Assembly: GCF_900100975.1 (NCBI RefSeq)
Contig: NZ_FNFX01000001.1
Span: 65,820-129,819, forward strand
Reading direction: 5' to 3'
Source of the DNA: Methylophilus rhizosphaerae
Lineage (GTDB): Bacteria > Pseudomonadota > Gammaproteobacteria > Burkholderiales > Methylophilaceae
Length of the DNA stretch: 64,000 bases
The notes beneath the pieces were generated by a model, which was not told the DNA's origin, searched no databases, and was given only the letters and a program-made list of their open reading frames with translations. Of this stretch, positions 44,390 to 64,000 are shown in pieces. Position 1 is the stretch's first letter, and each line of letters opens with the position of its first letter. Position numbers and translations under genes: made by a program.

Positions 44390-45550
44390 TTAAGCAACTG
44401 CGCGCAAATTACCGGCACCCGCCTTACCGCGTACCAATGGCAAGACTTCTTCCCCTACACGGTACGCTTCTTCCAGGTGGGGGGTACTGGCTAAAATAAA
44501 GGCATCAGCACCCAGCTGTACCAGTTCATCCAGGCGGGCTGCCACATTTTCGTAGCTGCCGACGATACCCAGGGTCTGGCCACCTCGCAATAAGTTGAAT
44601 CCTGTCCAGATATTGGGAGACAGAATAAAGTCCTTGTAGCTATTAATGGTTTGCGGCCTCAGCCCGCGCTGTCGGCTTGCACCTACGGAATCGCCGGCAT
44701 TCTGGGCTTTATAACGGTCCAGGACATCTTTAGGAATATTGTCAAAGCCACGGCTAATTTCCCGCCATGCTTCCTCCTCTGTTGGCCTGGCCAGAATATC
44801 CACGCGGATAGAGCACTTGATCTTGCGACCCAGCTGGTCCGTACGCTCCTTGACCCGCGCAAATTTGTCTTTAATCAGGTCAAATGGTTCCAGCCAGGAG
44901 AGGTAGTAATCTGCATGCTTGGATGCAGACGCGAGTGCAGCATCGGACGAACCTGAGAAATAGATTTCCGGGTATTCCTCTTTCGATAAAGGATCCGGCA
45001 AACCGGCATCTTCTACCTGGTAGAATTGGCCGTTATAGGAAAAAGGCCCGCCAGCCCAGATACCTTTTAATACATCCAGGAACTCTGTGGTACGGCCATA
45101 GCGGTCATCATGCTTGACAGGATCTCCCCACCATAATTGTGATGGTCCACCGCCGCCAGTGATGATGTTATACAGCGCCCTTCCCCCTGTGGCACGCTGC
45201 AAACTTGCTGTCATGCGCGCAGCGGTGACCGGGTTAAGGAAACCCGGCTGGAAGGGAATCATAAACCGGAAGTTTTTGGTTTCACGCGCCAGGAAGGCCG
45301 AAATCACCCAAGGCTCATCCGTGTTGGGGAATGAGGGAATCAATCCGCCCTGGAAACCTGAAATTTCTGCCGCACGTGCAATTTCCGCCAGGTAATCAAT
45401 GTAGGTAAAACCATCATCGCCACCACCACTCAAGCCACTCAGGGTTCTATTGTCATTACCGGGGAACCAGTCACCGCGGAAGGGCGAACGGGCACGGTGG
45501 GAGCTGGGTTCACCATGGGTTGGAATTCTCCAAAAAACATCTATCGTCAT
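44390..45550 (-). CDS. FMNH2-dependent alkanesulfonate monooxygenase-like (SsuD-type)
   Basis: A 386-residue luciferase-like monooxygenase close to SsuD. SsuD uses FMNH2 and oxygen to split alkanesulfonates into aldehyde and sulfite. The start MTIDVFWRIPTHGEP, ATGGRALYNIITGGG, PEIYFSGSSDAALASASKHADYYLSWLEP and the C-terminal PHLEEAYRVGEEVLPLV are SsuD-like. The FMN/sulfonate arginine region near GASRQRGLR is present. It is the second gene of a two-gene unit 19 bp after its paralogue. No SsuE-type flavin reductase is in the window. Confidence 0.88.
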   Translation of the reverse strand: MTIDVFWRIPTHGEPSSHRARSPFRGDWFPGNDNRTLSGLSGGGDDGFTYIDYLAEIARAAEISGFQGGLIPSFPNTDEPWVISAFLARETKNFRFMIPFQPGFLNPVTAARMTASLQRATGGRALYNIITGGGGPSQLWWGDPVKHDDRYGRTTEFLDVLKGIWAGGPFSYNGQFYQVEDAGLPDPLSKEEYPEIYFSGSSDAALASASKHADYYLSWLEPFDLIKDKFARVKERTDQLGRKIKCSIRVDILARPTEEEAWREISRGFDNIPKDVLDRYKAQNAGDSVGASRQRGLRPQTINSYKDFILSPNIWTGFNLLRGGQTLGIVGSYENVAARLDELVQLGADAFILASTPHLEEAYRVGEEVLPLVRGKAGAGNLRAVA

Positions 45551-45569
45551 TGTTTTCTCCTTATAAATC

Positions 45570-46634
45570 TCAGGCAGCCTGTTTTTGCGCAGGACGGGTT
45601 AATTCACGTACCAGTGGCAATACATAACTGCCTACACGATAGGCTTCTTCAAAATGCGGCACGGCAGCCAGTACAAACTGCGTGACACCCAAATTGGCAT
45701 AAGCAGCCAGAGCGGCCGCCACTTCATCATAACTGCCGATCAAGGAAGCGTTTGCGCCGGTATATTCGGCAGCGAACCCGGGCCACAGTAATGAAGATTC
45801 ATCTTTTGGAATCGGTGCACCTGTTTGCCCGAGGAAACGTTTGGCATCTGCCAGGGCTTCTTCGCGGGTTTCACGGGCCAGCACATCAATCCTGAGGGCA
45901 AACTCAGGCGCATTGGTGCTGGCAGCCTGTTGATATCGGGCAATCTGTTGGGCAATCGTTTCATGCCCGGCTGCCTCCAGCACATGCACATCGGCATGCT
46001 TTGCCGACAGCGCCACTTGTTCATCCGAACTGCCACTGAGGTAAACGCGCGGCACTTCACGGCTGGACAATGGTCCCTGGAATCCCCCATCCTGTACTTC
46101 GAAAAAGCGGCCGACAAAATTGAACGGATAGGTAGTCAACACGCCTTTGGCAACAGTGATGAACTCATCAATGCGCGCCAGGATATCTTCCTTGGGAACA
46201 AAGTCACCCAGCTGTTTACGCGTATGCTCATCACTATTACCTTCGGTGATATGCCATGCAAAGCGGCCACCGGTGTAGCGCTGGAAACTGACTGCATTTT
46301 TAGCCGCATAGACAGCAGAACCCCTTGAAGCGTCAAACTGTGTCAGCAGTTTCAGGCGCTGTGTACTTCTTGCAATATAACCGGCCACAATCCAGGGTTC
46401 TTCCCCGTCCGGATTATCGGGGATAAAAACCCCGGTAAACCCGGAAATATCCGCAGCCTTGGTCACCTGGTGGATATAGTCATAATAGTTAAATGCATTC
46501 TGGCGCGGATCAGTCACGCCGCTGCCAAAGACCGGGTAGTTAGGGTCAGCAGCTTCCCCACGACGCTGCCTGGTGGCATCGCCATAACGTGCATCACCGG
46601 ATGTCGGAAGCTGCCAATAAAATTGATTAGCCAT
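45570..46634 (-). CDS. SsuD-like flavin-dependent monooxygenase (paralogue)
   Basis: A 354-residue luciferase-like monooxygenase, shorter and more divergent than its neighbour but sharing layout and motifs (QFYWQLPTSGDARYG, YTGGRFAWHITEGNSDEHT, PRVYLSGSSDEQVALSAKHAD, PHFEEAYRVGSYVLPLVREL). GGAG lies six bases before the ATG chosen; another ATG directly upstream is too close. It is first in its operon behind a very good sigma-54 element. The substrate is probably a sulfonate or sulfone, but this is inferred from family and context. Confidence 0.82.
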   Translation of the reverse strand: MANQFYWQLPTSGDARYGDATRQRRGEAADPNYPVFGSGVTDPRQNAFNYYDYIHQVTKAADISGFTGVFIPDNPDGEEPWIVAGYIARSTQRLKLLTQFDASRGSAVYAAKNAVSFQRYTGGRFAWHITEGNSDEHTRKQLGDFVPKEDILARIDEFITVAKGVLTTYPFNFVGRFFEVQDGGFQGPLSSREVPRVYLSGSSDEQVALSAKHADVHVLEAAGHETIAQQIARYQQAASTNAPEFALRIDVLARETREEALADAKRFLGQTGAPIPKDESSLLWPGFAAEYTGANASLIGSYDEVAAALAAYANLGVTQFVLAAVPHFEEAYRVGSYVLPLVRELTRPAQKQAA

Positions 46635-46697
46635 CATTATCTCCTTCATGATCTGGGCACAAACCTGTGCTGTTCAATTACGGGCTATTCAATCATT

Positions 46698-46713
46698 GGC
46701 AGTTTTCGTGCCA
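46698..46713 (-). promoter_or_regulatory. Sigma-54-type -24/-12 promoter of the SsuD-like pair
   Basis: The minus strand reads TGGCACGAAAACTGCC. It matches TGGCACG-N4-TTGC in all but one defined base, with GG and GC at the correct 12-base step. The predicted start leaves a leader of about 53 bases. Two TGTTGC/GCAAC dyads lie further upstream at 46817-46834 and 46850-46863, where an enhancer-binding activator could sit. Confidence 0.8.
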
Positions 46714-46877: not shown

Positions 46878-47480
46878 TTACTCACTAAAACTAAACGTCC
46901 CTTCTGCAATAAACTTTTCGACGGGCTTTCTTGGCGTAGGCTGTTCACGTTCATGAAAGTCTTCTGGCAAGACCGATTTATCCGCCTGCTTGCCGACTGC
47001 GATCAGGATTTCCACCTGGTAACCTTCTGGCACGCCTAATACTTCTGGCGCCGCATCACGGTTAAAACCGCCAATCGCACGTGTCCGCCAGCCAAGTCGA
47101 TAGGCTTGAAAAGCCAGGCTGGCCCATGCCGCACCAGCATCTAAAGAATGATTTTTTAACGGTGATGCCGCAGTTTCACCCGGACGCACATGTGTTTTCT
47201 TGGAAACCAATGCAATGAGTACGGCGGCGCGATTCACCCAGCGCTGATTATTCTCGTTGAGCAGCGCAAACAAATTGCCCCAGTGCGCAGAGCCATTTTT
47301 TGCATAGATAAATCGCCAGGGCTGGGAGTTATTGGCAGATGGTGCCCATCTTGCCGCTTCAAACAGGCTGAACAAAGTGGCGTCATCAATGACTTCGCCG
47401 GTGTAGGCGCGTGGTGACCAGCGGTCAATAAAAATAGGCTCTATGGAATGCTGTGCATTTCTATTTGCAGCTTGTGTCAT
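46878..47480 (-). CDS. Nitroreductase family protein
   Basis: A 200-residue FMN-binding oxidoreductase. WSPRAYTGEVIDDATLFSLFEAARWAPSA followed by NNSQPWRFIYA is the family FMN-binding start, and GWRTRAIGGFNRDAAPEVLGVPEGYQVEILIAVG the C-terminal part. It lies 60 bp after yejA on the same strand, without its own visible promoter, so it is probably the last gene of the Yej operon. A role in supplying reduced flavin to the nearby monooxygenases is possible but only inferred. Confidence 0.85.
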   Translation of the reverse strand: MTQAANRNAQHSIEPIFIDRWSPRAYTGEVIDDATLFSLFEAARWAPSANNSQPWRFIYAKNGSAHWGNLFALLNENNQRWVNRAAVLIALVSKKTHVRPGETAASPLKNHSLDAGAAWASLAFQAYRLGWRTRAIGGFNRDAAPEVLGVPEGYQVEILIAVGKQADKSVLPEDFHEREQPTPRKPVEKFIAEGTFSFSE

Positions 47481-47540: not shown

Positions 47541-49412
47541 TTAATCAGGATTTGCTTTTTTGTGACCGGCTCCACCATCCCACCAATACGCCAAGGCCCA
47601 CTCTTGCGCCCCATAATACTTGGGCAATACCTGCGGCCGCTTCAATCGATGGTGGTAAATCAGGTAATGATGGGTGAGGTAACGCCAGGGAATCACATAA
47701 TGACCATGCACCAAAACACGATCCAGCGCATGTGCGGCAATTTCCAGTTCATGCTGGCTATCAGCATTGAGCAGCTTCTGGATGAGCGCATCGATTACCG
47801 GCGACTTCACGCCAATGACATTCTCCGAACCAGGCTTATCGGCATCCTTGCTGTTGAAATTACGCCATAGTTCTGCGCCCGGCATCCGGCCTTCCCGCAG
47901 GGCAATGGTCGTATAGTCAAAATCAAAGTTTTTCATCTGGCTGCGCGAAGTGGCAGCATCAGACACCCGTTTCACCACCACAATGCCCAGTTTCGACATA
48001 TTCAGGCAAACCGGGTCCATGTACGGGGTCTGGCCGCGCGTGGCAAAGGTCACTTCGATGACAAAAGGCTCCCCTTTGGCGTTGCGCAATACACCATCAC
48101 GGTTATGCCAGCCGGCTTCAGCCATTAATTCAAGTGCCTTGGTCAGGTTCTTCCTGATGCTGCCCGGCGGTTTGGTATTCGGTTGTTCCAGCATGGGGCC
48201 AAATACTTCGGCGGGCAATTGCTGGCGGTATGGTTCCAGGATTTCCAATTCCTCAGGGCCGGGCAACCCTTTTGCCGCCAGGGGACTGTATGCAAAATAG
48301 CTGTTCACGCGGTTGAATTCACTATCAAAGATTTTCTGGTTCATGAATTCAAAATCCATGGCGTAATTCAATGCCAGCCTGACGCGGGGATCCTGGAATT
48401 TTTCCCGGCGCAAATTGACTATCCAGCCATTCATCGCCACCGGATTCTGGTGTGGCACCAGCTCCTTGAGCAATTCACCTTCGTCAAAACGCTTGCCTAT
48501 ATACTGGCAGCACCAGTAGCGCATTTTATTTTCACTCAGAAAATCAAAATCACCCGCGCGTAACGCGGCTACCATGGTGTCGGTGTCTTTGTAAATACGG
48601 TAAACCACACGTTCAAAGTTATAAGTACCCACTCTTGAAGGCACCTGTGTACCCCAATAATCTGGATTGCGCTTATAAGTAACCGCCTGGCCACTGACTG
48701 CTCTCTCAATCAAATAAGGCCCTGATGCGATTGGCTCCTCCAACCCTATTTTGTTAAATGGCACGTGACTGCCATCTGCTTTTAAACCCCACTTCGGCGA
48801 GAAGACCGGCAGGCTGCCTGCCACAAAGGACAAGTCCCGACCTTTACGCTTGAATTCAAAATGGATGGTCTGGGCATCAAGCACCGTGACAGACTTGATT
48901 TCCGAAAAATACGCTTTAAATCGGGGATTGCCTTTCTTGTTGGTCAGGGTGTCGAATGAATACTTCACTTCTTTGGCTGTCACCGCATCCCCATTAGAAA
49001 ACCTGGCTAAGGGATTGATATGGAAAGTGACGGCACTGAAGTCAGGGGCTAGCTTGATATCATCAGCCAGCAAACCATACTGGGTATTGATTTCATCCAG
49101 GCTGTAGACAGTCAGTGTCTCAAACATTTGCTCTATCAGCCCCGGAGCAGGCTTGCCCTTCAGGCTGAATGGGTTGAGTTTATCAAAGCCGCTGTTCTGG
49201 CTGATGACTGCAAAACGGATTTGCCCGGCTTTTGGCGCATCGGGATTGGCATAATCAAAATGCTTGAAATCTGCCGGATATTTGGGCTCACCGAATTGTG
49301 CCACCGCGTGTGCAGCCAAACTATTGCTGGATGGCATCCAAAGCATTATGGATAACGCCACCAACGACACCCATTTGGAATAAGTTTTTTTATTACGGAT
49401 ATTCATAAACAT
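47541..49412 (-). CDS. yejA: Extracellular solute-binding protein of a Yej-type ABC importer
   Basis: A 623-residue periplasmic SBP (family 5) with signal peptide (about 1-33, LVALSIMLWMPSSNSLAAHA). The mature start AVAQFGEPKYPADFKHFDYANPDAPK is typical of YejA. E. coli YejABEF imports microcin C and oligopeptide-like compounds. Here, with a sigma-54 promoter and sulfur genes around, the natural ligand may be a sulfur-containing molecule. It begins 3 bp after yejF. Two Met codons (49412, 49406) are possible starts. Confidence 0.88.
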   Translation of the reverse strand: MFMNIRNKKTYSKWVSLVALSIMLWMPSSNSLAAHAVAQFGEPKYPADFKHFDYANPDAPKAGQIRFAVISQNSGFDKLNPFSLKGKPAPGLIEQMFETLTVYSLDEINTQYGLLADDIKLAPDFSAVTFHINPLARFSNGDAVTAKEVKYSFDTLTNKKGNPRFKAYFSEIKSVTVLDAQTIHFEFKRKGRDLSFVAGSLPVFSPKWGLKADGSHVPFNKIGLEEPIASGPYLIERAVSGQAVTYKRNPDYWGTQVPSRVGTYNFERVVYRIYKDTDTMVAALRAGDFDFLSENKMRYWCCQYIGKRFDEGELLKELVPHQNPVAMNGWIVNLRREKFQDPRVRLALNYAMDFEFMNQKIFDSEFNRVNSYFAYSPLAAKGLPGPEELEILEPYRQQLPAEVFGPMLEQPNTKPPGSIRKNLTKALELMAEAGWHNRDGVLRNAKGEPFVIEVTFATRGQTPYMDPVCLNMSKLGIVVVKRVSDAATSRSQMKNFDFDYTTIALREGRMPGAELWRNFNSKDADKPGSENVIGVKSPVIDALIQKLLNADSQHELEIAAHALDRVLVHGHYVIPWRYLTHHYLIYHHRLKRPQVLPKYYGAQEWALAYWWDGGAGHKKANPD

Positions 49413-49415: not shown

Positions 49416-51017
49416 CTAGAGAGAGGCTTGTACCAGGGATTTTGTATATGGATGGCGTGGTGCCTGTATGACTTGCTCGGTATCACCCGACTCGATGATC
49501 TCGCCGTCTTTAAGTACGTAAACACGATGCGCCAGCGCCTGGATGACGGTCAAGTCATGGCTGATCAACAGGTAGCTCATACCGAATTTCTTCTGTAATG
49601 ACACCAGCAACTCCAGCACCTGTTTCTGAATGGAGACATCCAGCGCAGAAGTCGGCTCATCCAGGACCACTACCTGTGGCGAGAGCACGAAGGCACGTGC
49701 AATGGCGATACGCTGCCGCTGCCCACCCGAGAACTCATGCGGATAGGAATCCAGCACCTGGGCGCTCAGGCCCACTTCGGAGAGCACCTGCACCATCCGC
49801 TCATAACGCTGTTCAGGTGTCAGCTCAGGAAAATGCAGTTCCAGGCCTTCGCCCACAATCTGGCGGATGGTCTGCCGGGGGGAAAGTGAACCGAACGGAT
49901 CCTGGAACACCACCTGCAACCTGGCCCTCACCTCACGCTGTAATCTCGCACTCAGGCTATAGAGTGGCGCGCCTGCAATTTCAATGTCACCTGATTTAAC
50001 CTTGATCAGGTTTAACACCGCCTGTGCCAGCGTCGATTTGCCGGAACCCGACTCTCCTACGATGCCCACTGTTTCTCCCTCTCGCAAAGTGATATCAACA
50101 CCGTGCAGGGCCGTGAATGTCTGGGCGTGGAACAAGCCACGCCAGCCTTTCCTGGGCAAAGGGTATTCCACCCTGATCTGCCTGGCTTCAAGCAGGGTTT
50201 TGGCATCCCCCGCCACCGGCAGTACGTTGCGTACCGGGACGCTGTTGATCAGCTTGAGGGTGTAAGGATGTGCAGGCTGTTCAAAAATCGCCTTGGTTTC
50301 ACCGGTTTCCACCAGCCTGCCCCGCTCCATCACGGCGACCCGGTGGGCAAATTTACGCACCAGGTTGAGGTCATGCGTAATCAGCAGGATAGCCATGGCA
50401 TGCTCGCCATTTTCACGTACTTCCTCTTCCTGGATATCAATCAGCAATTTAACGATACGTGCCCGTATGGTTAAATCAAGTGCGGTTGTCGGTTCATCCG
50501 CAATCAGTAACTTGGGTTTGCATGACAGGGCCATCGCGATCATGGCGCGCTGGCGCTGGCCGCCCGAGAGCTGGTGCGGGTAGCTGTTGATGTTTTTCTC
50601 CGGCTGGCGGATACCGGTGCGTGTCAGCAATTCCAGGGCTTTCTGTTTTGCCTGGGCACGGGTGAGTGCCTGGTGCGCAATCAGCGTTTCAACGATTTGC
50701 TCACCGATCGTAAACAGCGGGTTCAGCGCAGTCATGGGCTCCTGGAAGATCATGGCGATGTCAGCACCACGCACACGCTGGATCTCACGCGCTGATTTCT
50801 GCAGCAGGTCTTCGCCCCTGAATATGATCCTGCCACCCAGTTCGGCGGCTTCCACCAGCTTGAGGATGGATAATGCAGTGACCGTTTTGCCTGAGCCCGA
50901 TTCCCCTACCAGTGCCAGCCTTTCCCCGCTGTTAATATGCAGGTTAAGTTGTTCGACAACGGTTTTCTTCTCAAACCTGGCTGAGAAATCTTCAATGGAT
51001 AATAATGGCTGTGTCAT
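49416..51017 (-). CDS. yejF: Double ATP-binding subunit of the Yej-type importer
   Basis: A 533-residue protein with two fused ABC ATPase domains. The first has Walker A VGESGSGKTVTALS and signature LSGGQRQRAMIAMAL. The second has VGESGSGKSTLAQA and FSGGQRQRIAIARAF, with Walker B VVVLDEPTSALD. An Opp/Dpp C-terminal extension follows the first domain (AHPYTLKLINSVP). Its ATG overlaps the yejE stop by one base (TAATG). Confidence 0.92.
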   Translation of the reverse strand: MTQPLLSIEDFSARFEKKTVVEQLNLHINSGERLALVGESGSGKTVTALSILKLVEAAELGGRIIFRGEDLLQKSAREIQRVRGADIAMIFQEPMTALNPLFTIGEQIVETLIAHQALTRAQAKQKALELLTRTGIRQPEKNINSYPHQLSGGQRQRAMIAMALSCKPKLLIADEPTTALDLTIRARIVKLLIDIQEEEVRENGEHAMAILLITHDLNLVRKFAHRVAVMERGRLVETGETKAIFEQPAHPYTLKLINSVPVRNVLPVAGDAKTLLEARQIRVEYPLPRKGWRGLFHAQTFTALHGVDITLREGETVGIVGESGSGKSTLAQAVLNLIKVKSGDIEIAGAPLYSLSARLQREVRARLQVVFQDPFGSLSPRQTIRQIVGEGLELHFPELTPEQRYERMVQVLSEVGLSAQVLDSYPHEFSGGQRQRIAIARAFVLSPQVVVLDEPTSALDVSIQKQVLELLVSLQKKFGMSYLLISHDLTVIQALAHRVYVLKDGEIIESGDTEQVIQAPRHPYTKSLVQASL

Positions 51018-52078
51018 TACAAAGTACCGCCTTGTCGGGCATCAGAAATCCGGGTATCCAGCGCGTTACGCAAGGCTTCCCCGGTAAAAGTCAGCAATAG
51101 CAGGGTCAGCACCAGTACGCTGAATGCCGAGACTGCGATCCACCATGCATCCAGGTTCTCCTTACCCTGCAATAGCAGCTGGCCCAGGCTGGGCGCAGGT
51201 GCAGTCACGCCCAGACCCAGGAAATCCAGGCTGGCCAGTGCCATGATGGCGGCACTCATGCGGAAAGGTAAAAAGGTGATGACAGGCGTCAAACTGTTGG
51301 GCAGGATATGCCGCCAGATGATCTGGAAATTAGACAGGCCCAGCGCCCGGGCGGATTTGACATACTCAAGCTGGCGGTTGCGCAAAAACTCTGCGCGTAC
51401 ATAATCGGATAATGTGATCCAGCCGAACAATGACAGCAGGCCGAACAGCAGCAACAGGCTGTGGTCAAAAATAGAGGCAAAAATAATCAGCAGGTAGAGT
51501 TCCGGCATGGAGCCCCAGATATCGATTAAGCGTTGCGTAACCAGGTCGACCTTGCCGGCGAAATATCCCTGTATGGCACCAAAAAATATCCCCAGTATCA
51601 CCCCCACCGCAGTCAGGCCAAGTGCGAATGTGACTGAGACCCTAAAACCGTAAAGCAGGCGCGCCAGGATATCGTAACCAGCGATATCGGTACCCAGCAG
51701 GTTTTCATCGTCAGGCTTGCCCGGGTAATGTTCCGCAGTCGAAAAATAATTCAGCGTATCGTAGTAATAAGGGTTAAGCGGATAGATGGCGAAGTTGTCC
51801 TGCCTGGACAGTTGCGCCTTGATGAAGGGGTCATGATAGTCGGCCTGTATCGGCAGGTTGCCACCAAAGACAGACTCGGGGTAATCATGCAGCAAGGGGA
51901 AATACCATTGCTGTTCGTAACGCACGATTAATGGCTTATCATTTGAGATCACCTCACCTGCCAGGCTGATCACATACAGCAATACAAATACAATCAGGCT
52001 CCAGTAACCCAGGCGGTTGCGCTTGAAGCGTTGCCAGTTACGGCGGGCAGGAGAAAGATGGGGAATGACCTGGCTCAC
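51017..52078 (-). CDS. yejE: Permease subunit YejE
   Basis: A 353-residue inner-membrane permease with six segments and the binding-protein-dependent transport loop (YVKSARALGLSNFQIIWRHILPNSLTPVI). I chose the GTG at 52076-52078, one base after the yejB stop, because AGGAG precedes it by seven bases. The product then begins MSQVIPHLSPARRNWQRFKRN, like E. coli YejE. An in-frame ATG six codons upstream would overlap yejB. Confidence 0.9.
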   Translation of the reverse strand: MSQVIPHLSPARRNWQRFKRNRLGYWSLIVFVLLYVISLAGEVISNDKPLIVRYEQQWYFPLLHDYPESVFGGNLPIQADYHDPFIKAQLSRQDNFAIYPLNPYYYDTLNYFSTAEHYPGKPDDENLLGTDIAGYDILARLLYGFRVSVTFALGLTAVGVILGIFFGAIQGYFAGKVDLVTQRLIDIWGSMPELYLLIIFASIFDHSLLLLFGLLSLFGWITLSDYVRAEFLRNRQLEYVKSARALGLSNFQIIWRHILPNSLTPVITFLPFRMSAAIMALASLDFLGLGVTAPAPSLGQLLLQGKENLDAWWIAVSAFSVLVLTLLLLTFTGEALRNALDTRISDARQGGTL

Positions 52079-52079
52079 T

Positions 52080-53189: not shown

Positions 53190-53205
53190 TGCAGATTCCG
53201 TACCA
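53190..53205 (-). promoter_or_regulatory. Sigma-54-type -24/-12 promoter of the yej operon
   Basis: The minus strand reads TGGTACGGAATCTGCA, differing from TGGCACG-N4-TTGCA at two defined positions but with GG and GC correctly spaced. The predicted leader is about 38 bases. This is the weakest of the four sites by sequence, yet its position matches the others. Confidence 0.65.
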
Positions 53206-55254: not shown

Positions 55255-55797
55255 TTAAATTTTGCCACTGAGGGTGGTTTGTTGTTGGGCTGCGGGGGAT
55301 ATCACACCCATGATGTGTACGATACGCTCTGCAATGGTGAAGTCTTTTTCTAGGCGCAATATGCGGCATGATCGCTGCGCAAGCCATGCATTATGTTTTG
55401 CCAGGCTGCGGCCTTCTGCCACACCTTCGTCATATTGGGAAGCCCATGCCAGGAATGCCGGGTCAACAGTGCCGTACCGGGCCAGTTCGCGTTGGCGGAG
55501 CCGCTCCAGGCGTATACTGGCCGGCAGGTATAAAAACACAATCAGATCGAATGCATTTTCAATATCTGCGCCCCAGCCCACCAGTGACCCCGAAACCACT
55601 ACATTTTCTTCCGCTTGAATATCTGTGTTAAGCAAAGCCGACCTGTCCGCAATCGGCCGCTTCTGTTTGTAAGGTGGATGTGTCGGTAACCAGTAGTAAT
55701 GATCGCTATCTAGGTGCTTGAGGGAAAGCGTTCGCGCAAGCGAATGCCCGAGAGTAGTCGTACCACTCCCGGAAGCACCTGTAATATGTATTCTCAT
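55255..55797 (-). CDS. P-loop kinase-like protein (adenylate-kinase type)
   Basis: A 180-residue P-loop protein. Walker A is HITGASGSGTTTLGHSL (residues 4-20), followed by HLDSDHYYWLPT, an acidic acceptor-binding region, and a lid-like stretch (SIRLERLRQRELARYG). It resembles the AAA_17/AAA_18 adenylate-kinase-like proteins of unknown substrate. It sits between two DszA-like paralogues in the same direction (19 and 37 bp gaps), so it should be cotranscribed. A role in the pathway cannot be assigned. Confidence 0.8.
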   Translation of the reverse strand: MRIHITGASGSGTTTLGHSLARTLSLKHLDSDHYYWLPTHPPYKQKRPIADRSALLNTDIQAEENVVVSGSLVGWGADIENAFDLIVFLYLPASIRLERLRQRELARYGTVDPAFLAWASQYDEGVAEGRSLAKHNAWLAQRSCRILRLEKDFTIAERIVHIMGVISPAAQQQTTLSGKI

Positions 55798-55834: not shown

Positions 55835-57190
55835 TCAAGAGGCGGCTTTAAGCTGGCTTTGTGCGACCGTATGCTGATTTTCAGGCCGGTCTAAGCCCAA
55901 ATTTTCGCGATAGGTCTTACCTTCGTATTCCTTGCGGAAAATACCGCGGCGCTGCAATTCCGGAACCACCAGGCGGGTAAAGTCTTCCAGGCCTTTGATA
56001 GAGTAAGGAGGCACGACATTAAAGCCATCAGCGCCCTTCTCCACAAACCATTGTTCAATGGTATCGGCCACTGTTTTCACGGAACCAATGGCCTGTAAAT
56101 GGCCCCTTGCAACGCGGAATTTAAGCACCAACTGGCGGATCGTCAGGTTCTCGCGCCTGGCCAATTCGAGTTGTTGCTGGAAACGGCCACGGCCATTTTC
56201 ACCCGGATCATAATCCAGGTCCGGCAATGGGCCATCCAATGGATATTTGGATAAATCCTGGCCGCCAAACTCCAGGTCGGAAAAATCGACCAGTGCCTGT
56301 AACTCGCCGTATTTGTCCTGGGCTTCCTGGTCGGTTTCAGCCACCACGACATTCAGGCCAGGTGTGATCTTGAGCTGGTCTTCAGCGCGGCCATATTTGG
56401 CCATGCGCGATTTCACATCGGCATAATAGGCTTTGGCAACTTCCAGTGAAGTCGCCGAGCTATAGGTCATTTCCGCTTCACGCGCTGCAAATTCACGGCC
56501 GGTATCTGAGTTGCCTGCCTGTACAAACACCGGATACCCTTGGATCGGCCTTGGAAAATCCAGCAGGCCTTCTGATCTGAAATACTCCCCCTTGAAATCC
56601 ACCGGATGCCCTGAAGCAGGGTCATAAAACTGCCCGGCCTGGCGGTCGGGATGATCGAAAGCATCATCATCCCAGCTATCCCATAATGCCTTTGTCAACC
56701 TGATGAACTCACTGGCACGCTCATAGCGTTCTTCATGCGTGATCGGCGCTTCTATGCCAAAGTTCTTGGCGGTGACCGGGTTAAGCGAAGAGACGACATT
56801 CCAGCCGGCGCGGCCCCCGCTTAAATGGTCAAGCGAGGTGAATTGGCGCGCGACATTGTAAGGCTCGGAAAAATTGGTATTCACGGTAGCCACCAGGCCA
56901 ATATGTTTGGTCTGCGAGGCAATGGCTGACAGCAGGGTGAATGGTTCAAAGTGAAAATTGTTCGGGTTTTTCACTGCCTGCTTGTCGATGATACCGGAGC
57001 GCCCGATAAAATCAGCCACAAAAAAAGTGTCGAACTTGGCAGCTTCGGCGATCTGGGCCGCGCGTATCCACCACTGCAGATCCGGACGCCCGTTCTCCGT
57101 CCATGTCGGATGCAGCCAGCCGGCGGGATGGTGCCCATAGCGCAGTAAAAATACATTGAGGACCAGTTGTCTGTTTTTGTGTTGACTCAC
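55835..57190 (-). CDS. DszA/NtaA/SnaA-family flavin monooxygenase (copy 1)
   Basis: A 451-residue paralogue of the protein at 53910-55235, very similar along its length. Motifs are LDHLSGGRAGWNVVSSLNPVTAKNFG, SWDDDAFDHPDR, FPRPIQGYPVFVQAGNSDTG and GADGFNVVPPYSIKGLEDFTRL. By analogy with DszA it may insert oxygen and open a C-S bond of a sulfone, giving a sulfinate, the substrate class of the DszB-like protein two genes upstream. That link is inferred from context. Confidence 0.88.
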   Translation of the reverse strand: MSQHKNRQLVLNVFLLRYGHHPAGWLHPTWTENGRPDLQWWIRAAQIAEAAKFDTFFVADFIGRSGIIDKQAVKNPNNFHFEPFTLLSAIASQTKHIGLVATVNTNFSEPYNVARQFTSLDHLSGGRAGWNVVSSLNPVTAKNFGIEAPITHEERYERASEFIRLTKALWDSWDDDAFDHPDRQAGQFYDPASGHPVDFKGEYFRSEGLLDFPRPIQGYPVFVQAGNSDTGREFAAREAEMTYSSATSLEVAKAYYADVKSRMAKYGRAEDQLKITPGLNVVVAETDQEAQDKYGELQALVDFSDLEFGGQDLSKYPLDGPLPDLDYDPGENGRGRFQQQLELARRENLTIRQLVLKFRVARGHLQAIGSVKTVADTIEQWFVEKGADGFNVVPPYSIKGLEDFTRLVVPELQRRGIFRKEYEGKTYRENLGLDRPENQHTVAQSQLKAAS

Positions 57191-57256: not shown

Positions 57257-57961
57257 TCAAGCCGCTTTTTGCTTGAGCAGGTCTGAAATAAAACGGCCTG
57301 AATACTGTTTGGCTTTTTCCACCAGGCCAGTGCGTTTCCATTGCACTTCCAGCGCACCCGGAGTGTATTCTTTCGCTCCGCCCACCTGTTCAGCCAGTGA
57401 CTGGAAGCGCGCGGCCTCTTCGATCAGCAGCACCAGTTGTGAGGTGCCAATAATGCCCTTGCCCCAGATATTGGCGCCACCATTGGATTCCAGTAATGCT
57501 GGTGGAGGTGCCAGCTCGGGATGATTGTCCAGGCGCTCGGAAATGATCGACAGGATGCTGCGGGTGCGGTCTAGGTGGTTAGGAATCTCCCTTGCCAGCA
57601 GATGGCGTTGTGCAGCCACATATAAAATAGGGAAATTGATTTGCGCCAGGGACCAGGCAGCCAGGTAAGGGGTATGCGCGTGAATTACGGTATCCGCATC
57701 GATACGCGATTCATGCAGGATGTGGTCTTTCTTTTCGGAGAAAGTATCAATACTCACCACCGGGTCACGCGACTTTTCCCATGGCCATGGGAAGCGGATA
57801 TTCAGCAGTTTGTCCTGGCCTGGAATTTTGTGGGTGATATGGTAAGTCCAGGTAGCAGACAAAGTGCCGGTTTCTTTCAGGAAGTTGAATGAATGCAACG
57901 CATCCGCCTTGGCCTGTTCTACATACTTGATCAAATCTGCTTCTGTAACGATGTCGCTCAT
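57257..57961 (-). CDS. Class II aldolase/adducin family protein
   Basis: A 234-residue protein of the class II aldolase/adducin fold. The zinc-site histidines are visible in VIHAHTPYLAAW, and the N-terminal region holds FLKETGTLSATWTYHITHK. Members split or epimerise sugar phosphates, or decarboxylate. Here it may process the carbon part released from an organosulfur substrate, but this is only context. AGGAGCATTTATT precedes the ATG. It lies between the DszB-like and DszA-like genes. Confidence 0.8.
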   Translation of the reverse strand: MSDIVTEADLIKYVEQAKADALHSFNFLKETGTLSATWTYHITHKIPGQDKLLNIRFPWPWEKSRDPVVSIDTFSEKKDHILHESRIDADTVIHAHTPYLAAWSLAQINFPILYVAAQRHLLAREIPNHLDRTRSILSIISERLDNHPELAPPPALLESNGGANIWGKGIIGTSQLVLLIEEAARFQSLAEQVGGAKEYTPGALEVQWKRTGLVEKAKQYSGRFISDLLKQKAA

Positions 57962-57985: not shown

Positions 57986-59065
57986 TTATGCAGCTTTTGC
58001 TGCCTCAAAGGTGGTAAATTCCGGTTGCTGCCTGACCAGTTTTGCGGCACGCTGCAAAGGCGCCGGGTCTATCCAGTCCTGGATATCAAAATCCTGTTTT
58101 ACGTACCCCCAGTCGCGCAGGAAATTCTTCTGGATTTCCAGGCCTTTGACATATTGGTTACTCAGGGATGGGGTAAAAGAGAGATGTACATTGGCCCCAT
58201 GCGAGGCAACGACCTCGGATTCGCTGGCGCTCTGCGCTTCTGGTGCCAGCAGGTGCAGCACATCCTGCGGATGCGTCTTTGCCCATTCGGCAGTGCGTAA
58301 CAACACGGCCAGGTAGCGGTCTACAATATCCGGATGCTTTTGCAGGAAAGCACGGTCAATCGTGATCGGTCTGGGCGTGCCATTGTTTACACGCACAAAA
58401 GGATCGTGATGCTCGTTAATATTGAGCAGTTGGCGATAGCCTGGGGTATTTGCCAACCGCACACCACGGGCAAACCGGACGAAAATGGCATCCACGTGCC
58501 CATCATTCAACGCCTCCAGTTCAACATGGCGGTATTCAGGGCGCTCACGTCTTGGGCCATCACTCAGGTCATAGCTAGGGGCAGCGATATCCACCCATTG
58601 TGCATCGGCTGGCGACAATCCATGTAATGCAAACGCAGTCGCAAAACCATGCTGTGCCGCACCCCGCTGGAAGTCAATCACGGCATCCGCATGGTCAGGA
58701 ATACCCACGCGCTTGCCTTTAAGATCGCTGATGGAATGGATGGCACTGTCGTCCCTGACAATAATGCCCTGATACTCATCCAGCCAGGTGATGCCGACGA
58801 CCACGGTGTCATGCCCCAGGCCCTTGGCCCAGATAGGGGGAATATTACCGCCCTCCCTGAACATGCCGGATTGTTTGTGGTGGTAATGTGAATTCCTGAC
58901 TTCCAGGCTCTCAGCATCACGCAGTGAATGTAACCGCGTCCCATGCCCGGCAAATTCCTGCTGTAGCCATTGCTGGCGGATAGCTAATGCCGAAGCCGTT
59001 GCAGCACCGCACCGGGTGTACCAGAGATGCACGACCTGATCTGAGACCGATAAATGTTGACTCAT
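57986..59065 (-). CDS. DszB-like desulfinase (cytoplasmic, SBP-fold)
   Basis: A 359-residue protein with the fold of SsuA-type solute-binding proteins but no signal peptide (MSQHLSVSDQVVHLWYTRCG). It matches DszB (2'-hydroxybiphenyl-2-sulfinate desulfinase) in the key region. Cys19 (YTRCGAATASALA) aligns with DszB Cys27. His60 and Arg70 fall in SHYHHKQSGMFREGGNIPP, with the same spacing, to each other and to the GG-IPP motif, as DszB His60 and Arg70. VVVGITWLDEYQGIIVRDDSAI continues the likeness. It probably hydrolyses a sulfinate to sulfite, but the substrate is unknown. It is first in the six-gene operon. The alternative is a periplasmic binding protein, which the missing signal argues against. 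Confidence 0.8.
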   Translation of the reverse strand: MSQHLSVSDQVVHLWYTRCGAATASALAIRQQWLQQEFAGHGTRLHSLRDAESLEVRNSHYHHKQSGMFREGGNIPPIWAKGLGHDTVVVGITWLDEYQGIIVRDDSAIHSISDLKGKRVGIPDHADAVIDFQRGAAQHGFATAFALHGLSPADAQWVDIAAPSYDLSDGPRRERPEYRHVELEALNDGHVDAIFVRFARGVRLANTPGYRQLLNINEHHDPFVRVNNGTPRPITIDRAFLQKHPDIVDRYLAVLLRTAEWAKTHPQDVLHLLAPEAQSASESEVVASHGANVHLSFTPSLSNQYVKGLEIQKNFLRDWGYVKQDFDIQDWIDPAPLQRAAKLVRQQPEFTTFEAAKAA

Positions 59066-59103: not shown

Positions 59104-59119
59104 GGCAAACAACATGCCA
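59104..59119 (-). promoter_or_regulatory. Sigma-54-type -24/-12 promoter of the DszB/DszA operon
   Basis: The minus strand reads TGGCATGTTGTTTGCC, matching TGGCACG-N4-TTGC with one mismatch. The predicted start leaves a leader of about 28 bases before the DszB-like gene. Confidence 0.8.
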
Positions 59120-59642: not shown

Positions 59643-59658
59643 TGGCATGATTCATGCC
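59643..59658 (+). promoter_or_regulatory. Sigma-54-type -24/-12 promoter of the TonB receptor
   Basis: TGGCATGATTCATGCC matches TGGCACG-N4-TTGC with two mismatches and correct GG/GC spacing. The predicted leader is about 43 bases. It shares TGGCATG with the divergent operon promoter. Confidence 0.75.
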
Positions 59659-59711: not shown

Positions 59712-62168
59712 ATGAAAAGAACTAATGACACAATCGGCGCGCAACAGCCGAGCAATTTATGGAAATTAAGAACAGTCAAAATAGCTGTTTTAAGTGCCTT
59801 TGCAGGTTCACTGGCATTCAATCCAGCCTGGGCTGCCGAAGAAGAAAAAGTAGTTGAAGGCCAGGAAGCACAAGTTTCAGAAACTGCCGAAAACAATGAA
59901 GCCAGCAACAAACCTGAAGAGAATCAAGCCCAGGATTCTTCTTTGGGCAGCGTCACCGTAACCGCAAACAGACGCAAGGAAAATGCACAGAAAATCGCTA
60001 CCCCGATCACAGTTCTCAAAGGGAAAGACCTGCTTGACCAGGGTGTTGGCCGTTCAGCACAGGAAGTTTTTAACTATGTGCCTAACGCGACAGCCGTTGG
60101 CCAGCAACATGGCCGGCCACGCTGGTGGATTCGTGGTATCGGTGCCGGCCAGCAACAACAGGATTTGGCCAGCCCGATCGGTTTTTACCTGGATGAGGTG
60201 TATATCAGTAATACAAATGCCACCGGTTTCCCATTATTTGACCTGGAGCGTGTTGAAGTGCTTCGCGGCCCTCAAGGTACCAAGTATGGTAAGAACACGA
60301 CTGGTGGTGCTGTCAATATCATCTCGCAAAAACCTTCATTGAAAGAAGGCAAAACAGATGATTATGTCAAAGCGGAGTATGGCACTTTCAATGACAAAAT
60401 CATCCAGGGGGGTGTCAATATCCCTCTGGTTGACGACCGCCTCGGTGCCCGTATTTCTTTCTATAACGAAGATACCGATGGTCGTTTCCGCAATCAATTT
60501 AAAGGCACCAAAGATGGCGGCTTGCAGGATGGTGCATTGCGCGGCCAGTTATTGGGAAAAATCTCGGATGACTTTGAAGCATTGCTGAATGTCCATTACC
60601 GCAAATATAAAACGGATGGTGCCATTACCAACACAAACAGTTATAGAGCAGATGGCGTACTGCGCGCAAACTACAGGCCTAGCACAGACTATGATGATGT
60701 CAGCACCAACGCAGACAACTGGACAGACTCGTCACAAACGGGTGCTAACCTGAACCTGAAGTGGAATGTTGGCAAATATGCCCTCACTTCGATTACTGGT
60801 TTCGAGGGCTTCAAGAACGAAGGCTTGAGTGATGGTGATAACTCGCCACTTGAACTTTCCCGCAGCCACACAGACAGCCAATCACGCCAGGTTTCCCAAG
60901 AATTCCGCATTACCTCCCCGCGTGAAGATCAATGGAACTGGCTGGGGGGTGTGCATTTGTTTAAAGAGACTATTGATTTAGCTAGCCAAAATGCAAAATT
61001 GCCTGCTGGCCAGGTCGCTAACTCAAGCCCTGCTGATTCTGGTACAGCCGTTACTTACAACGAAACGGATCTGAAGCACGAAACAACAAGCTTCTCATTA
61101 TTCGGCAACACTACCTATAACTGGACAGATGCATTTGCAACTTCAGCAGGGTTAAGCTGGAGCCATGAGAAAAAAGACTATGACTTAAATCGCAGAGGGA
61201 CTAGCAATACGGGTGTCAATGGCAGCTTCTCGAACCTGGCTCAATGGTGGAATTCATTTACGCCATCAGGCGCTGGTTTTACACCAGCCGGTACATTAGG
61301 GTCAGGGACATTTAGTACCAGTGACTCCGCCACTTGGAATCGTTGGAGCTATGACTTCACACCAGAATACAAAATAACACCTACTGATCGCGTATTTTTC
61401 AAATATGCACATGGCATCAAATCTGGTGGTTTCAATACGGCTGCGACTAATCTGGCTGCTGTCAATGAGGTAAAGCCTGAGCAGCTGGACTCTTACGAAT
61501 TAGGCTACAAATCCGAATGGCTGGCTGGCCGTTTGAACTTCAACGCAACTGCGTTTTACTACGATTACAAAGACGTTCAGGTCAACGTGGTTGGCTTTAA
61601 CGTATTGGCAGGCCAAACCGTGTCTTACCTGCAAAACGTAGATAGTGCCAAAACCTATGGCCTGGAGCTGGAAGTACAGGCACTGCCAACCAACGACTGG
61701 TTTATCAATGGCAGCCTAGGCCTGCTCAGCACCAAGTACGAAGATGCAGAGATCCTGAACAATGGTGGTAACTTCGACGGCAACCACCTGGTTCGTTCAC
61801 CTAATGTCACCGCCAACATCCTGAGCACTTATACCTTCCACGTCGACAATGGCGCCAAGGTAGTCGTAGGTGGGGATGCCCGTTTCCTGTCCAAGCAATA
61901 CTACTATGTGACACCACAAGGTGTGGATGATAATGGTGTATACCGTTCAGGGCTTGAGCAAGGAGCGTTCACCATTGTGAATGCGCGCATTTCCTATATC
62001 ACTGCAGGTAACAAATACACAGTGACTGCTTATGCCAACAACCTGTTTGACAAGCACTACCTGCAACACTCAACACCGTCATATAGCGCAGGACAGGGTG
62101 TTTTTGGTGACAACATCATGCAAGGCAGCGTCAGAACGGTAGGTGTTTCTTTCGCAGCAGCGTTCTAG
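59712..62168 (+). CDS. TonB-dependent outer-membrane receptor
   Basis: An 818-residue receptor. A signal peptide (about 1-41, ending SLAFNPAWAAEEE) is followed by an acidic spacer (no obvious signalling domain). The TonB box region and plug (about 78-215) contain SVTVTANRRKE, RPRWWIRGIGAG, ERVEVLRGPQGTKYGKNTTGGAVNI. A large beta barrel ends in Phe (GVSFAAAF). It belongs to the broad FecA/SftP-like group. Given the sigma-54 element shared with the desulfurisation operons, its ligand may be an organosulfur compound. AAGGGA precedes the ATG. Confidence 0.9.
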   Translation: MKRTNDTIGAQQPSNLWKLRTVKIAVLSAFAGSLAFNPAWAAEEEKVVEGQEAQVSETAENNEASNKPEENQAQDSSLGSVTVTANRRKENAQKIATPITVLKGKDLLDQGVGRSAQEVFNYVPNATAVGQQHGRPRWWIRGIGAGQQQQDLASPIGFYLDEVYISNTNATGFPLFDLERVEVLRGPQGTKYGKNTTGGAVNIISQKPSLKEGKTDDYVKAEYGTFNDKIIQGGVNIPLVDDRLGARISFYNEDTDGRFRNQFKGTKDGGLQDGALRGQLLGKISDDFEALLNVHYRKYKTDGAITNTNSYRADGVLRANYRPSTDYDDVSTNADNWTDSSQTGANLNLKWNVGKYALTSITGFEGFKNEGLSDGDNSPLELSRSHTDSQSRQVSQEFRITSPREDQWNWLGGVHLFKETIDLASQNAKLPAGQVANSSPADSGTAVTYNETDLKHETTSFSLFGNTTYNWTDAFATSAGLSWSHEKKDYDLNRRGTSNTGVNGSFSNLAQWWNSFTPSGAGFTPAGTLGSGTFSTSDSATWNRWSYDFTPEYKITPTDRVFFKYAHGIKSGGFNTAATNLAAVNEVKPEQLDSYELGYKSEWLAGRLNFNATAFYYDYKDVQVNVVGFNVLAGQTVSYLQNVDSAKTYGLELEVQALPTNDWFINGSLGLLSTKYEDAEILNNGGNFDGNHLVRSPNVTANILSTYTFHVDNGAKVVVGGDARFLSKQYYYVTPQGVDDNGVYRSGLEQGAFTIVNARISYITAGNKYTVTAYANNLFDKHYLQHSTPSYSAGQGVFGDNIMQGSVRTVGVSFAAAF

Positions 62169-62222: not shown

Positions 62223-62249
62223 GCTTGACTCACCACTAAGGAGGACTGC

Positions 62250-64000
62250 TTGAAGTCCTACATCAATACTGAAGAGAATGGGGTATATGCGCCATCGTCG
62301 CGCGCGCCCCTGTTTCAACTAAAACAACCATTGCTGCGTTGCCTGGCCTTGTATGCCCACATGCCGTGGCAATTCACCCTCACTGCCCTGCTGTTTATCC
62401 TGGTCAATGCAGGGATGGCCTGGCAACTCTGGCTGGTAGGCCAGATAGTGCAATCCATTCACGTTGGCGAATTTGTCACGCGCAATATGCAGGGCCTGCC
62501 TGATTTCACCAATGCGCGTCACTGGCTGATGCTGCTGATTGGTGTGGCAATTGGCCGTGGCATCCTGCAATATATTGGTGGCGTGATGTCACTGATTATT
62601 GGCCAGGAACTGCTCTATATTCTGCGCGAACGCATTTTGCACCAGGTACAACGGTTAGACCTGGCCTATCACTGGCAACACGGCATCGGTGAAATTGTGA
62701 CACGTACCACGCGTGATGCCGACAAAGTGCGTGATGCCCTGATCAATTTCTGGCGCCAGGTGTTTGAAGCCTCCATCTGGGTGCTGATCTCTGTCACCGT
62801 TCTAAGCGTTTATCATCCGCTGATTGGCCTGGGCATCCTGCTGCTGGTCGTGGCTGGCATGTGCTTGTTTGTCAGGCATACCAATACTTTGGTCATCCTG
62901 GACCGCGAAGTCGGCAACGCTTATGACCAGGTCAATCAGGAACTCAGTGAGGGCGTCAATGGCATACGCGTGATTAAAGCCTTTGGACTGGAATCTCCCC
63001 GTACCAAACACTTTGCCAGCCTGGTTGATACCTTTGTCAGCCATGCGCATACCGCGCTGGCCTTTGCCGCCAAAAGAATTCCTCTACCGCAGATGGTGAT
63101 TGGTTTTAGTCAGGTGTGGATCCTTGCCTTTGGCGCTTACCTGGTCAGCAAAGGTACATTGAATATCGGTCAGCTAGTGGCCGCTTTACTCATCGCGAAT
63201 GCCCTGGTGTTCCGCGTCGAAGGCATCGGCCGTGTCATGCAGGTATTTGCCGATGCACGCGCTTCTGCCAGCCGCATCTGGGAGTTGCTGGATGAAGAGC
63301 CACAGATCCTGTCCGGCTCTCACACGCTGGCGACACAAGCACTGGGTTTCCGCCTAACCAATGTCACTACCCAGGCACCTAACAGTGACCAGGTCATTTT
63401 GCATCATTGCAGCCTGGAGGTCAGCCCGGGCGAAACGGTGGCCATAGTCGGGGCAACGGGTGCCGGTAAGAGCTCATTGGCCGGGCTATTGCCGCGATTG
63501 CTGGATGCCAAACACGGTAGTGTGGAAATCGGCTCCGCCTGGGCAGGCTGGCATGACGTAAAAACCTTAAACCTGCAACAACTGCGCAAGTCTGTACATG
63601 TCGTGCCGCAGGAAAGTTTCTTGTTCTCGGACACACTGGCGGCCAATTTACGCCTGGCCAAACCCGATGCGACGGATGAAGAACTGTTGCAGGCTCTGCA
63701 TCTGGCAGCCGCCGATGAAGTACTGGAAAAACTCAGTGATGGCCTGCAGACCAAAATCGGTGACCGCGGCATTACATTGTCAGGTGGGCAACGCCAGCGC
63801 ATCAGCCTGGCGCGTGCCTTTTTATCGGCGCCTTCCATCCTGGTGCTGGATGACTCGACCAGTGCACTGGATGCCATTACCGAGCGCAAAGTACTGGATA
63901 ACATCCGTAACCTGCGCGATACCACCGGCAAAAACACCACGGTACTTATCATCGCCAGCAAGCTATCCACCATTTTGCTGGCAGATCGCGTCGCCATGCT
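62250..64000 (+). CDS. ABC exporter with fused ATPase (cut by window edge)
   Basis: An open frame of more than 580 codons runs off the right edge. The proposed start is TTG at 62250-62252, five bases after AAGGAGG. A six-segment exporter domain (about 30-330) is followed by an ATPase with Walker A VGATGAGKSSLAGLL, signature LSGGQRQRISLARAF and Walker B ILVLDDSTSALD, where the usual Glu after Asp is Asp. That change suggests this half is a weak or non-hydrolysing partner in a heterodimer. The next gene beyond the edge probably encodes the other half. The substrate is unknown. Confidence 0.82.
   Translation, partial: MKSYINTEENGVYAPSSRAPLFQLKQPLLRCLALYAHMPWQFTLTALLFILVNAGMAWQLWLVGQIVQSIHVGEFVTRNMQGLPDFTNARHWLMLLIGVAIGRGILQYIGGVMSLIIGQELLYILRERILHQVQRLDLAYHWQHGIGEIVTRTTRDADKVRDALINFWRQVFEASIWVLISVTVLSVYHPLIGLGILLLVVAGMCLFVRHTNTLVILDREVGNAYDQVNQELSEGVNGIRVIKAFGLESPRTKHFASLVDTFVSHAHTALAFAAKRIPLPQMVIGFSQVWILAFGAYLVSKGTLNIGQLVAALLIANALVFRVEGIGRVMQVFADARASASRIWELLDEEPQILSGSHTLATQALGFRLTNVTTQAPNSDQVILHHCSLEVSPGETVAIVGATGAGKSSLAGLLPRLLDAKHGSVEIGSAWAGWHDVKTLNLQQLRKSVHVVPQESFLFSDTLAANLRLAKPDATDEELLQALHLAAADEVLEKLSDGLQTKIGDRGITLSGGQRQRISLARAFLSAPSILVLDDSTSALDAITERKVLDNIRNLRDTTGKNTTVLIIASKLSTILLADRVAM

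Follow-up and report, generated by a model that had tools for sequence, protein, structure and literature searches.

What does a long block of organosulfur genes do in a Methylophilus, and how is it controlled? The question is raised by a stretch of 64,000 nucleotides of Methylophilus rhizosphaerae DNA (hereafter the window; contig NZ_FNFX01000001.1, positions 65,820 to 129,819, or G000:C10:65820-129819 in our numbering; host genome 2.76 Mb). A reading made from the letters of the window (hereafter the sequence-only reading) had described, at 44390-64000, an organosulfur island of about 19 kb in a probable methylotroph, and a Methylophilus host agrees with the latter. Open reading frame (ORF) calls and family searches found intact ORFs at all the positions noted for 44390-64000 and supported the families, so that the gene content was borne out, but the island proved twice as large: when the sequence was read on past the window, it extended about 23.6 kb beyond the window end, to G000:C10:153461, or about 43 kb in all. 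The half beyond the window encodes three further DszB-like proteins, SsuABC, TonB-ExbBD, a weakly thiol-dioxygenase-like protein, a 1-Cys peroxiredoxin, a flavin mononucleotide (FMN) reductase and an SfnR-type sigma-54 activator. The gene block looks built to take sulfur from organic molecules under sulfate shortage and is apparently switched together by one regulator. In our view it is likely an SfnR-type regulon for sulfate starvation, 43 kb long and assembled at a single Methylophilus locus, with a DszB-like desulfinase route to sulfite.

The control elements in the window, with their candidate enhancer sites, are the following.

46698..46713, minus strand: -24/-12 element TGGCACGAAAACTGCC of the unit ssuD2-ssuD1, 13.8 bits
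46817..46832: enhancer palindrome TGTTGCCTAAGCAGCA, one mismatch; second copy with two mismatches at 46849-46864, 32 bp off
53190..53205, minus strand: -24/-12 element TGGTACGGAATCTGCA of the unit yejBEFA-nitroreductase, 14.1 bits (equal score in the relatives G008 and G014)
53314..53329: enhancer palindrome TGATGCAGGAACAACA, two mismatches
59104..59119, minus strand: -24/-12 element TGGCATGTTGTTTGCC of the unit dszB1-aldII-dszA2-kinase-dszA1-cytochrome b561, 13.4 bits
59273..59288: enhancer palindrome TGCTGCTACCGCAACA, one mismatch; perfect before the aldII_1 ortholog in G008, G010 and G014
59507-59522 and 59550-59565: two enhancer palindromes, two mismatches each
59643..59658, plus strand: -24/-12 element TGGCATGATTCATGCC of the unit TonB receptor-exporter, 9.5 bits

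The sequence-only reading had claimed a -24/-12 element at each unit. Three of the four sites, all on the minus strand, score 13.4-14.1 bits; the fourth is weak here and reaches 11.0-17.0 bits before its ortholog in 6/6 relatives. A blind scan of the window was rejected as evidence, with seven sites of at least 12 bits against 10.85 expected; the scan is not above chance, and conservation tests were used instead, the promoter evidence being position and conservation. Sites were present before the orthologous unit heads of the TonB receptor (7/7 genomes), yejB (3/3), ssuD2 (5/5), dszB2 (4/4 Methylophilus genomes), ssuB (6/7) and aldII_2 (5/7). With gene heads defined as ORFs of at least 120 amino acids and at least 60 bp of upstream sequence, a site of at least 11 bits preceded 47 of 95 heads inside seven islands and 3 of 111 outside, counts in which orthologs are not independent; in the host genome alone the figures were 8/17 inside the island and 2/25 outside. 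Elsewhere in the window, a -24/-12-like site of 12.9 bits lies 32 bp before an ATP-binding cassette (ABC) exporter gene at 40282 (40234-40282), without an enhancer palindrome.

Upstream of 47 sigma-54 sites, the commonest perfect palindrome was TGTTG-N6-CAACA, found in 17; the longer site TGTTGC-N4-GCAACA, with up to two mismatches, lies upstream of 40 of the 47, mostly by 80-170 bp, and is often doubled at 30-33 bp. The TonB receptor has such a site, with one or two mismatches, in 7/7 genomes. A sigma-54 site together with an enhancer was found at 38/95 heads in the seven islands against 0/111 outside, a comparison that is partly circular because the motif was derived from the same promoters and the orthologs are not independent. 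Only loci outside Methylophilaceae test the motif independently: in 68 such loci it had 28 near-matches, the highest count among 60 half-site permutations, the 59 others giving a mean of 2.6 (standard deviation 2.9, maximum 16). Besides the 30-33 bp spacing, distances of 21, 55 and 3 bp between palindromes are seen there repeatedly (the control for spacing being one permuted half-site). Across the host genome, 25 palindromes with at most one mismatch were found, against nine for the reversed control; all four in the island have a -24/-12 element of at least 13.4 bits at 79-169 bp. Outside the island, two of 21 have an element of at least 11 bits (11.9 and 13.5, at 195 and 225 bp) and the other 19 have none within 40-260 bp; all 21 were treated as chance. 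The near-perfect palindromes with a -24/-12-like site at G000:C5:236230 and G000:C10:304102 (L186 and L200) are possibly further targets, possibly chance.

Four of five Pseudomonas loci have this palindrome in front of sfnG or of an FMN reductase-sfnG pair (SfnG was above cut-off in five of the seven genomes searched). Among the scanned loci, those with a pair of FMN reductase and MsuD-like genes (L154, L155 and L156) have it in front of that pair; the enhancer scan gave no site in L157, and the loci L152, L153 and L158-L160, found with the SfnG profile, lie outside the scan. The activator encoded in the island has an AAA+ domain from residue 43 of 381, an HTH_8 domain at its end and no sensor domain; SfnR likewise begins almost directly with its AAA+ domain. 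Its best homologs in seven genomes are 57-60% identical (65% over a partial match in G065), and the one in G063 (58%) sits between sfnG and an MsuD-like gene. Because the sfnG loci share its palindrome, we read the island as an SfnR-type regulon: SfnR, cited in the sequence-only reading as a mere parallel, would belong to the same type of regulatory system, and sigma-54 control is supported by the conserved promoters, by an SfnR-type activator in the island and by a likely enhancer site. The activator and its putative enhancer site are new in this analysis, and the motif provides a sequence handle for locating such regulons. The activator is also present in genus genomes that lack DszB-like genes (G007:C205, G020:C15, G003, G011 and G012; L126-L130), at 83-84% identity in two; in the other three, where identity is 67-70%, it adjoins TonB-ExbB genes.

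The desulfinase assignment concerns four paralogs, one of them in the window.

57986..59065, minus strand: dszB1, DszB-like desulfinase, Cys/His/Arg kept, no signal peptide

When a profile of ten DszB-like proteins was compared with solved structures, DszB was the sole match at 1e-5 or better (6.9e-28), and DszB residues Cys27, His60 and Arg70, which we take to be its catalytic triad (2de3 being the C27S form), align to columns that do not vary among six relatives and the four paralogs of the island. For DszB1, the predicted model (predicted local distance difference test, pLDDT, 90.7) has DszB as its best structural match (5.3e-21), followed by SsuA (2.7e-16). A hydrophobic N-terminus is missing in all four, whose peaks are 0.49-0.91, whereas SsuA, YejA and the TonB receptor reach 1.61-1.83; this points to cytosolic proteins without a signal peptide. 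In the wider family alignment, from which three of 150 matches were first dropped for stops, Cys, His and Arg are complete in 117 of 151 aligned sequences. Among the other 34, 11 are the second gene of a Pseudomonas tandem pair with Ser for the catalytic Cys (L099, L100, L102, L104, L109, L111-L113, L117 near 11.1 kb, L120 at 6.6 kb and L121 at 4.9 kb), a possible active/inactive pair. No other protein in the 61 genomes searched is more than 41% identical to dszB1. The four Cys-intact putative desulfinases are new in this analysis.

The remaining genes of the window part of the island are as follows.

44390..45550, minus strand: ssuD1, SsuD/MsuD-like LLM flavin monooxygenase
45570..46649, minus strand: ssuD2, second SsuD-like LLM monooxygenase
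46878..47480, minus strand: nitroreductase-family protein
47541..49412, minus strand: YejA/MbnE-type periplasmic binding protein
49416..51017, minus strand: YejF-type double ATPase; best model YejF, under cut-off
51017..52132, minus strand: YejE-type permease; the longest ORF begins with TTG and the true start is probably further in
52080..53141, minus strand: YejB permease, above the NCBIfam cut-off
53362..53913, minus strand: cytochrome b561
53910..55235, minus strand: dszA1, NtaA/DmoA/DszA-family FMN monooxygenase
55255..55797, minus strand: small P-loop kinase-like protein (PRK06217, above cut-off)
55835..57190, minus strand: dszA2, NtaA/DmoA/DszA-family FMN monooxygenase; nearest solved structure YtnJ/MoxC
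57257..57961, minus strand: aldII_1, class II aldolase fold; His-x-His, Asn at the expected third metal-binding His
59712..62168, plus strand: TonB-dependent receptor
62250..64000, plus strand: exp1a, first half of a heterodimeric ABC exporter; gene end 94 bases past the window, partner exp1b next

Several assignments of the sequence-only reading are narrowed by the scores. Its two SsuD-like proteins are SsuD-like, not SsuD, at 275.8 and 163.8 bits against a cut-off of 510, and at 270 and 160.6 against an equivalog cut-off of 518.2; ssuD1 is 72-94% identical in relatives (Methylophilaceae, Pseudomonas, Massilia and a methanotroph metagenome-assembled genome), where ssuD2 often adjoins it. Both DszA-like proteins score above the cut-off of TIGR03860, a broad model for NtaA/DmoA (506.5 and 518.8 against 279.7), but dszA2, the one tested against solved structures, is nearer to Bacillus subtilis YtnJ/MoxC (331 bits) than to a DszA (257 bits). 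As for the Yej-type importer, which it called complete, YejB exceeds its cut-off (461.8 against 445), whereas YejE (364 against 439) and YejF (612 against 834) have the Yej models as best match below cut-off; the top match of YejA is an unnamed binding protein (7z8e, 371 bits), and it then matches the solved YejA (319.5) and MbnE (318.9) about equally. The ABC exporter is present as one half of a pair, its partner lying just past the window.

The class II aldolase-fold proteins (57257-57961, and 84895-85617 of the extended sequence) have His-x-His in 51/51 members and Asn at the third position in 51/51; we equate this position with the third metal-binding His from the AraD/FucA motifs. Matches of the predicted aldII_1 fold (pLDDT 86.8) include fuculose aldolase (1.1e-10) as well as three iron oxygenases, namely NovR, TqaM and pyruvic oxime dioxygenase.

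How would such an island work? The sensor-less activator encoded in it would bind TGTTGC-N4-GCAACA upstream of the -24/-12 promoters, and sigma-54 polymerase would then transcribe each unit, presumably on sulfur limitation; by analogy with Pseudomonas, a CysB-type protein may set the activator level, and a CysB/Cbl-family regulator is encoded elsewhere in the genome. Organosulfur compounds would enter through the TonB receptor, driven by the dedicated TonB-ExbBD, and through the SsuABC and Yej-type importers; flavin monooxygenases fed by the FMN reductase, perhaps with a thiol dioxygenase, would give sulfinates or sulfite; and the four cytosolic DszB-like desulfinases would hydrolyse sulfinates to sulfite for assimilation, which could go to a CysI-like reductase. 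For a cell living on one-carbon compounds the carbon residue has little value; the aldolase-like proteins would cleave it, or it would leave through two heterodimeric exporters. The sequence itself shows the gene content, the conserved order and promoters, the enhancer site in common with sfnG loci, the catalytic residues and the lack of a match for SfnG or MsuC/DszC-type genes; in this scheme we infer the induction by sulfur limitation, the enzyme activities, the direction of the exporters and the order of the steps. The genome shows no SfnG above cut-off (best 137.6 against 382.95), all five stretches matching the SfnG profile falling in the island's own four monooxygenases, and no match at 1e-3 to PF08028, which we take to be the family of MsuC, DszC and SfnB. 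In Pseudomonas, methanesulfinate arises through SfnG, MsuC turns it by oxidation into methanesulfonate, and sulfite is then set free by MsuD (PMC8234197, in excerpt). Because neither SfnG nor an MsuC/DszC-type oxidase was found in the genome, direct hydrolysis of sulfinates by the DszB-like proteins would be the simplest reading. Methylophilus bacteria live on methanol, according to an excerpt of one paper (PMC8399692), and for this reason export of the desulfurised skeleton is plausible, though a guess.

A number of observations weigh against this scheme, beyond the partial circularity noted above. On the regulatory side, seven of the 47 promoters have no palindrome within two mismatches, one of the five sfnG loci (L148) has none, and the sites that scored ahead of the CDO gene extend over its start and are probably not promoters. 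Among the proteins, 34 of the 151 aligned DszB-family sequences lack Cys or His or are gapped there; the aldolase-like proteins lack the third metal-binding His; the thiol-dioxygenase-like protein has mercaptosuccinate dioxygenase as a weak nearest solved relative (E-value 3e-4) and no Pfam or NCBIfam match at 1e-3; the CysI-like sulfite reductase of the genome scores 650 bits, below its cut-off of 757; and exp1a resembles the MsbA and CydD models below cut-off, so that carbon-residue export is guesswork. A sulfur-free ligand is also conceivable for the TonB receptor. Finally, 18 of 22 genus genomes show no DszB-like gene (four of the 22 are less than 90% complete).

The DszB-like proteins could instead be sulfonate-binding SsuA paralogs and not enzymes, in which case the island would amount to no more than an extended system for alkanesulfonate uptake with SsuD. 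Of the NCBIfam models, the SsuA-family TIGR01728 fits the three DszB-like proteins tested best, below cut-off, SsuA folds come second among the structural matches of DszB1, a single-sequence search also finds SsuA weakly, public records label DszB relatives 'ABC transporter substrate-binding protein', and the 34 residue-deficient or gapped members fit a binding role. Yet the four proteins lack the hydrophobic N-terminus, a separate SsuA is encoded in the island, and Cys, His and Arg are invariant in the ten aligned sequences and complete in 117 of 151, and we hold this alternative to be distinctly unlikely. It is a different matter with units 2 and 3 (Yej importer, nitroreductase, DszA-like pair and kinase), which may serve salvage of S-modified cysteine or small peptides and not a sulfone route; the model would be the ytmI operon of B. 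subtilis, which encodes the monooxygenase YtnJ and functions in salvage of this kind. Because dszA2 is nearer to YtnJ than to DszA and the Yej importer is of peptide type, S-modified cysteines or peptides compete with sulfones as substrates of these units, and no PF08028-type oxidase for making sulfones was found. The YtnJ similarity is, however, at family level, unit 3 begins with dszB1, which would require a sulfinate, and no acetyltransferase or deacetylase was recognised among the ORFs of the window and its extension, no search having been aimed at them; on balance, we find the salvage reading somewhat unlikely.

A metallophore system lying merely beside the sulfur genes could account for the TonB receptor, the exporters, the SIP protein and the nitroreductase: the best NCBIfam match of the receptor is the TonB-siderophore model, below cut-off, a SIP protein is encoded in the island, and YejA matches the methanobactin-binding MbnE as well as it does YejA. 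Against it stand the receptor's conserved -24/-12 and enhancer sites in 7/7 genomes and the receptor-like genes at 42 DszB loci (41 at 30% identity or more) among the best 77 of at least 576; no metallophore synthesis genes were recognised among the ORFs of the extended sequence, where no dedicated search was made. We regard this as very improbable, and keep the sulfate-starvation regulon as the preferred reading.

How widely is such a system distributed? DszB-like proteins occur in nine of 61 genomes: the host, 3/21 other genus members, 3/15 of the family and 2/24 of the order, the last two being weak and partial. The sequence-only reading had named beforehand a lack of conserved gene order in relatives as a ground for giving it up; the order was found conserved, though 4/22 genus genomes show DszB-like genes. 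Three genus relatives keep most of the island in the same order, and three other Methylophilaceae genera keep the core (DszB, aldolase, SsuABC, TonB-ExbBD, TonB receptor, activator and FMN reductase) in rearranged order. The Yej and DszA genes make up the variable part; the island stretch of G010 lacks them and also cytochrome b561.

A wider sample consisted of the best 77 loci of at least 576 relatives of one query, and gene counts in it are for this reason biased to near relatives; neighbour genes were counted by tblastn, matches down to 23% identity included, since a longest-ORF map undercounted in G+C-rich genomes. Besides the receptor-like genes mentioned above, SsuC was found at 51 loci, SsuA at 42, an aldolase of either type at 44 (the second type at 38, the first at 10), ssuD1-like genes at 33, the activator at 19 and an exporter half at 18; at 40% identity or more the counts were 30 for ssuD1, 46 for ssuC1 and 39 for ssuA. 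DszB-like protein, class II aldolase, SsuABC and TonB receptor recur as a cassette in Pseudomonas, Oxalobacteraceae, Sphingomonadaceae and others, and one Burkholderia cenocepacia replicon holds aldolase, activator, SsuA, SsuC, three DszB-like genes, TonB-ExbBD and receptor together (tblastn). This apparent breadth of the cassette is new in this analysis. In a second context, seen at some loci (Comamonas, Variovorax, Bradyrhizobium and Sinorhizobium meliloti pSymA), dipeptide-type transporters and DszA-like genes are the neighbours; at the pSymA locus (L132) DszB-like genes stand beside dipeptide-type transporters and a DszA-like gene, and a Variovorax locus (L133) has a DszB-like gene near SfnB-family and cysteine-dioxygenase-family genes. 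Our tentative extension of the preferred reading, to which we give a little less than an even chance, is a widespread pathway under SfnR-type control in which TonB uptake leads to flavin monooxygenases and then to cytosolic DszB-type desulfinases, sulfinates passing straight to sulfite and not via MsuC, while an Asn-variant aldolase-fold enzyme (possibly a non-haem iron oxygenase, cf. NovR and TqaM) handles a shared natural sulfur compound.

Known systems share parts of the island. With the SfnR/msu/sfn regulon of Pseudomonas (dimethyl sulfone to sulfite) it has in common an SfnR-type activator, sigma-54 promoters, the enhancer palindrome, and SsuD/MsuD-like monooxygenases with an FMN reductase, but no SfnG above cut-off and no PF08028 (MsuC-type) protein were found in the genome, and in their place there are DszB-like desulfinases, a class II aldolase, a TonB receptor and exporters. 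The 4S pathway (dszABC) of Rhodococcus likewise combines a DszB-like desulfinase, catalytic residues included, with DszA-family monooxygenases in one unit; the island genome differs in that no DszC-type protein was found in it, and in its four DszB paralogs, sigma-54 control, importers and a DszA-like protein (the one tested) nearer to YtnJ. The ssuEADCB alkanesulfonate system shares the SsuABC importer, SsuD-like monooxygenases and FMN reductase, whereas the island's SsuD-like proteins fall far under the SsuD cut-off and desulfinases and TonB-ExbBD are additional. The YejABEF-type gene set with its binding protein resembles that of Yej (microcin C) and methanobactin-type importers, but here it stands under a sulfur regulon's promoter type. 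To our knowledge, the desulfinase branch is known mainly from fuel-desulfurising actinobacteria.

In the portions retrieved of open PubMed Central text, which leaves subscription papers outside, no description of DszB-like, aldolase, TonB and SfnR genes together was found. A paper on sulfolane, in the part available, reports DszA homologs and no DszB, and the available parts of genome papers on Methylophilus and Methylophilaceae mention ssuC, sfnG and alkanesulfonate transporters and do not describe this island. More than 95% of soil sulfur is organic, according to an excerpt of one source (PMC4267179), and similar uncharacterised gene blocks occur in many other bacteria. If the preferred reading is true, many proteins named 'ABC transporter substrate-binding protein' would be desulfinases belonging to sulfate-starvation regulons in Pseudomonas, Burkholderiales, sphingomonads and methylotrophs, and the conserved cassette would point to a common natural sulfur compound needing active outer-membrane uptake.

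Beyond the window, to C10:153461, the genes follow in this order, the names ExbB, ExbD, TonB and SsuC being given from sequence reading without a family search.

Up to dszB3: exp1b, dszB2, 1-Cys peroxiredoxin, hydrolase, Ddl-like ligase, HAD, SIP, MarR, thiol-dioxygenase-like protein, dszB3
After dszB3: exporter pair 2, two ssuC genes, exbD, exbB, tonB, ssuB, ssuA, dszB4, aldII_2, SfnR-type activator, FMN reductase

The SIP protein lies at 70594-71328 of the extended sequence, and the D-Ala-D-Ala-ligase-like and HAD genes (68785-70507, or C10:134604-136326) find no counterpart in the island stretches fetched from G008, G010 and G014. The G+C content is 51.4% in the island, 51.0% before it and 55.5% after it, which gives no clear sign of recent foreign origin. 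The FMN reductase is MsuE-like, with a score just under the MsuE cut-off. The peroxiredoxin of the island carries the 1-Cys C-terminal domain, and LsfA, a 1-Cys peroxiredoxin, is among the antioxidant genes raised in sulfur-starved Pseudomonas aeruginosa, as given in an excerpt of one report (PMC12581299).

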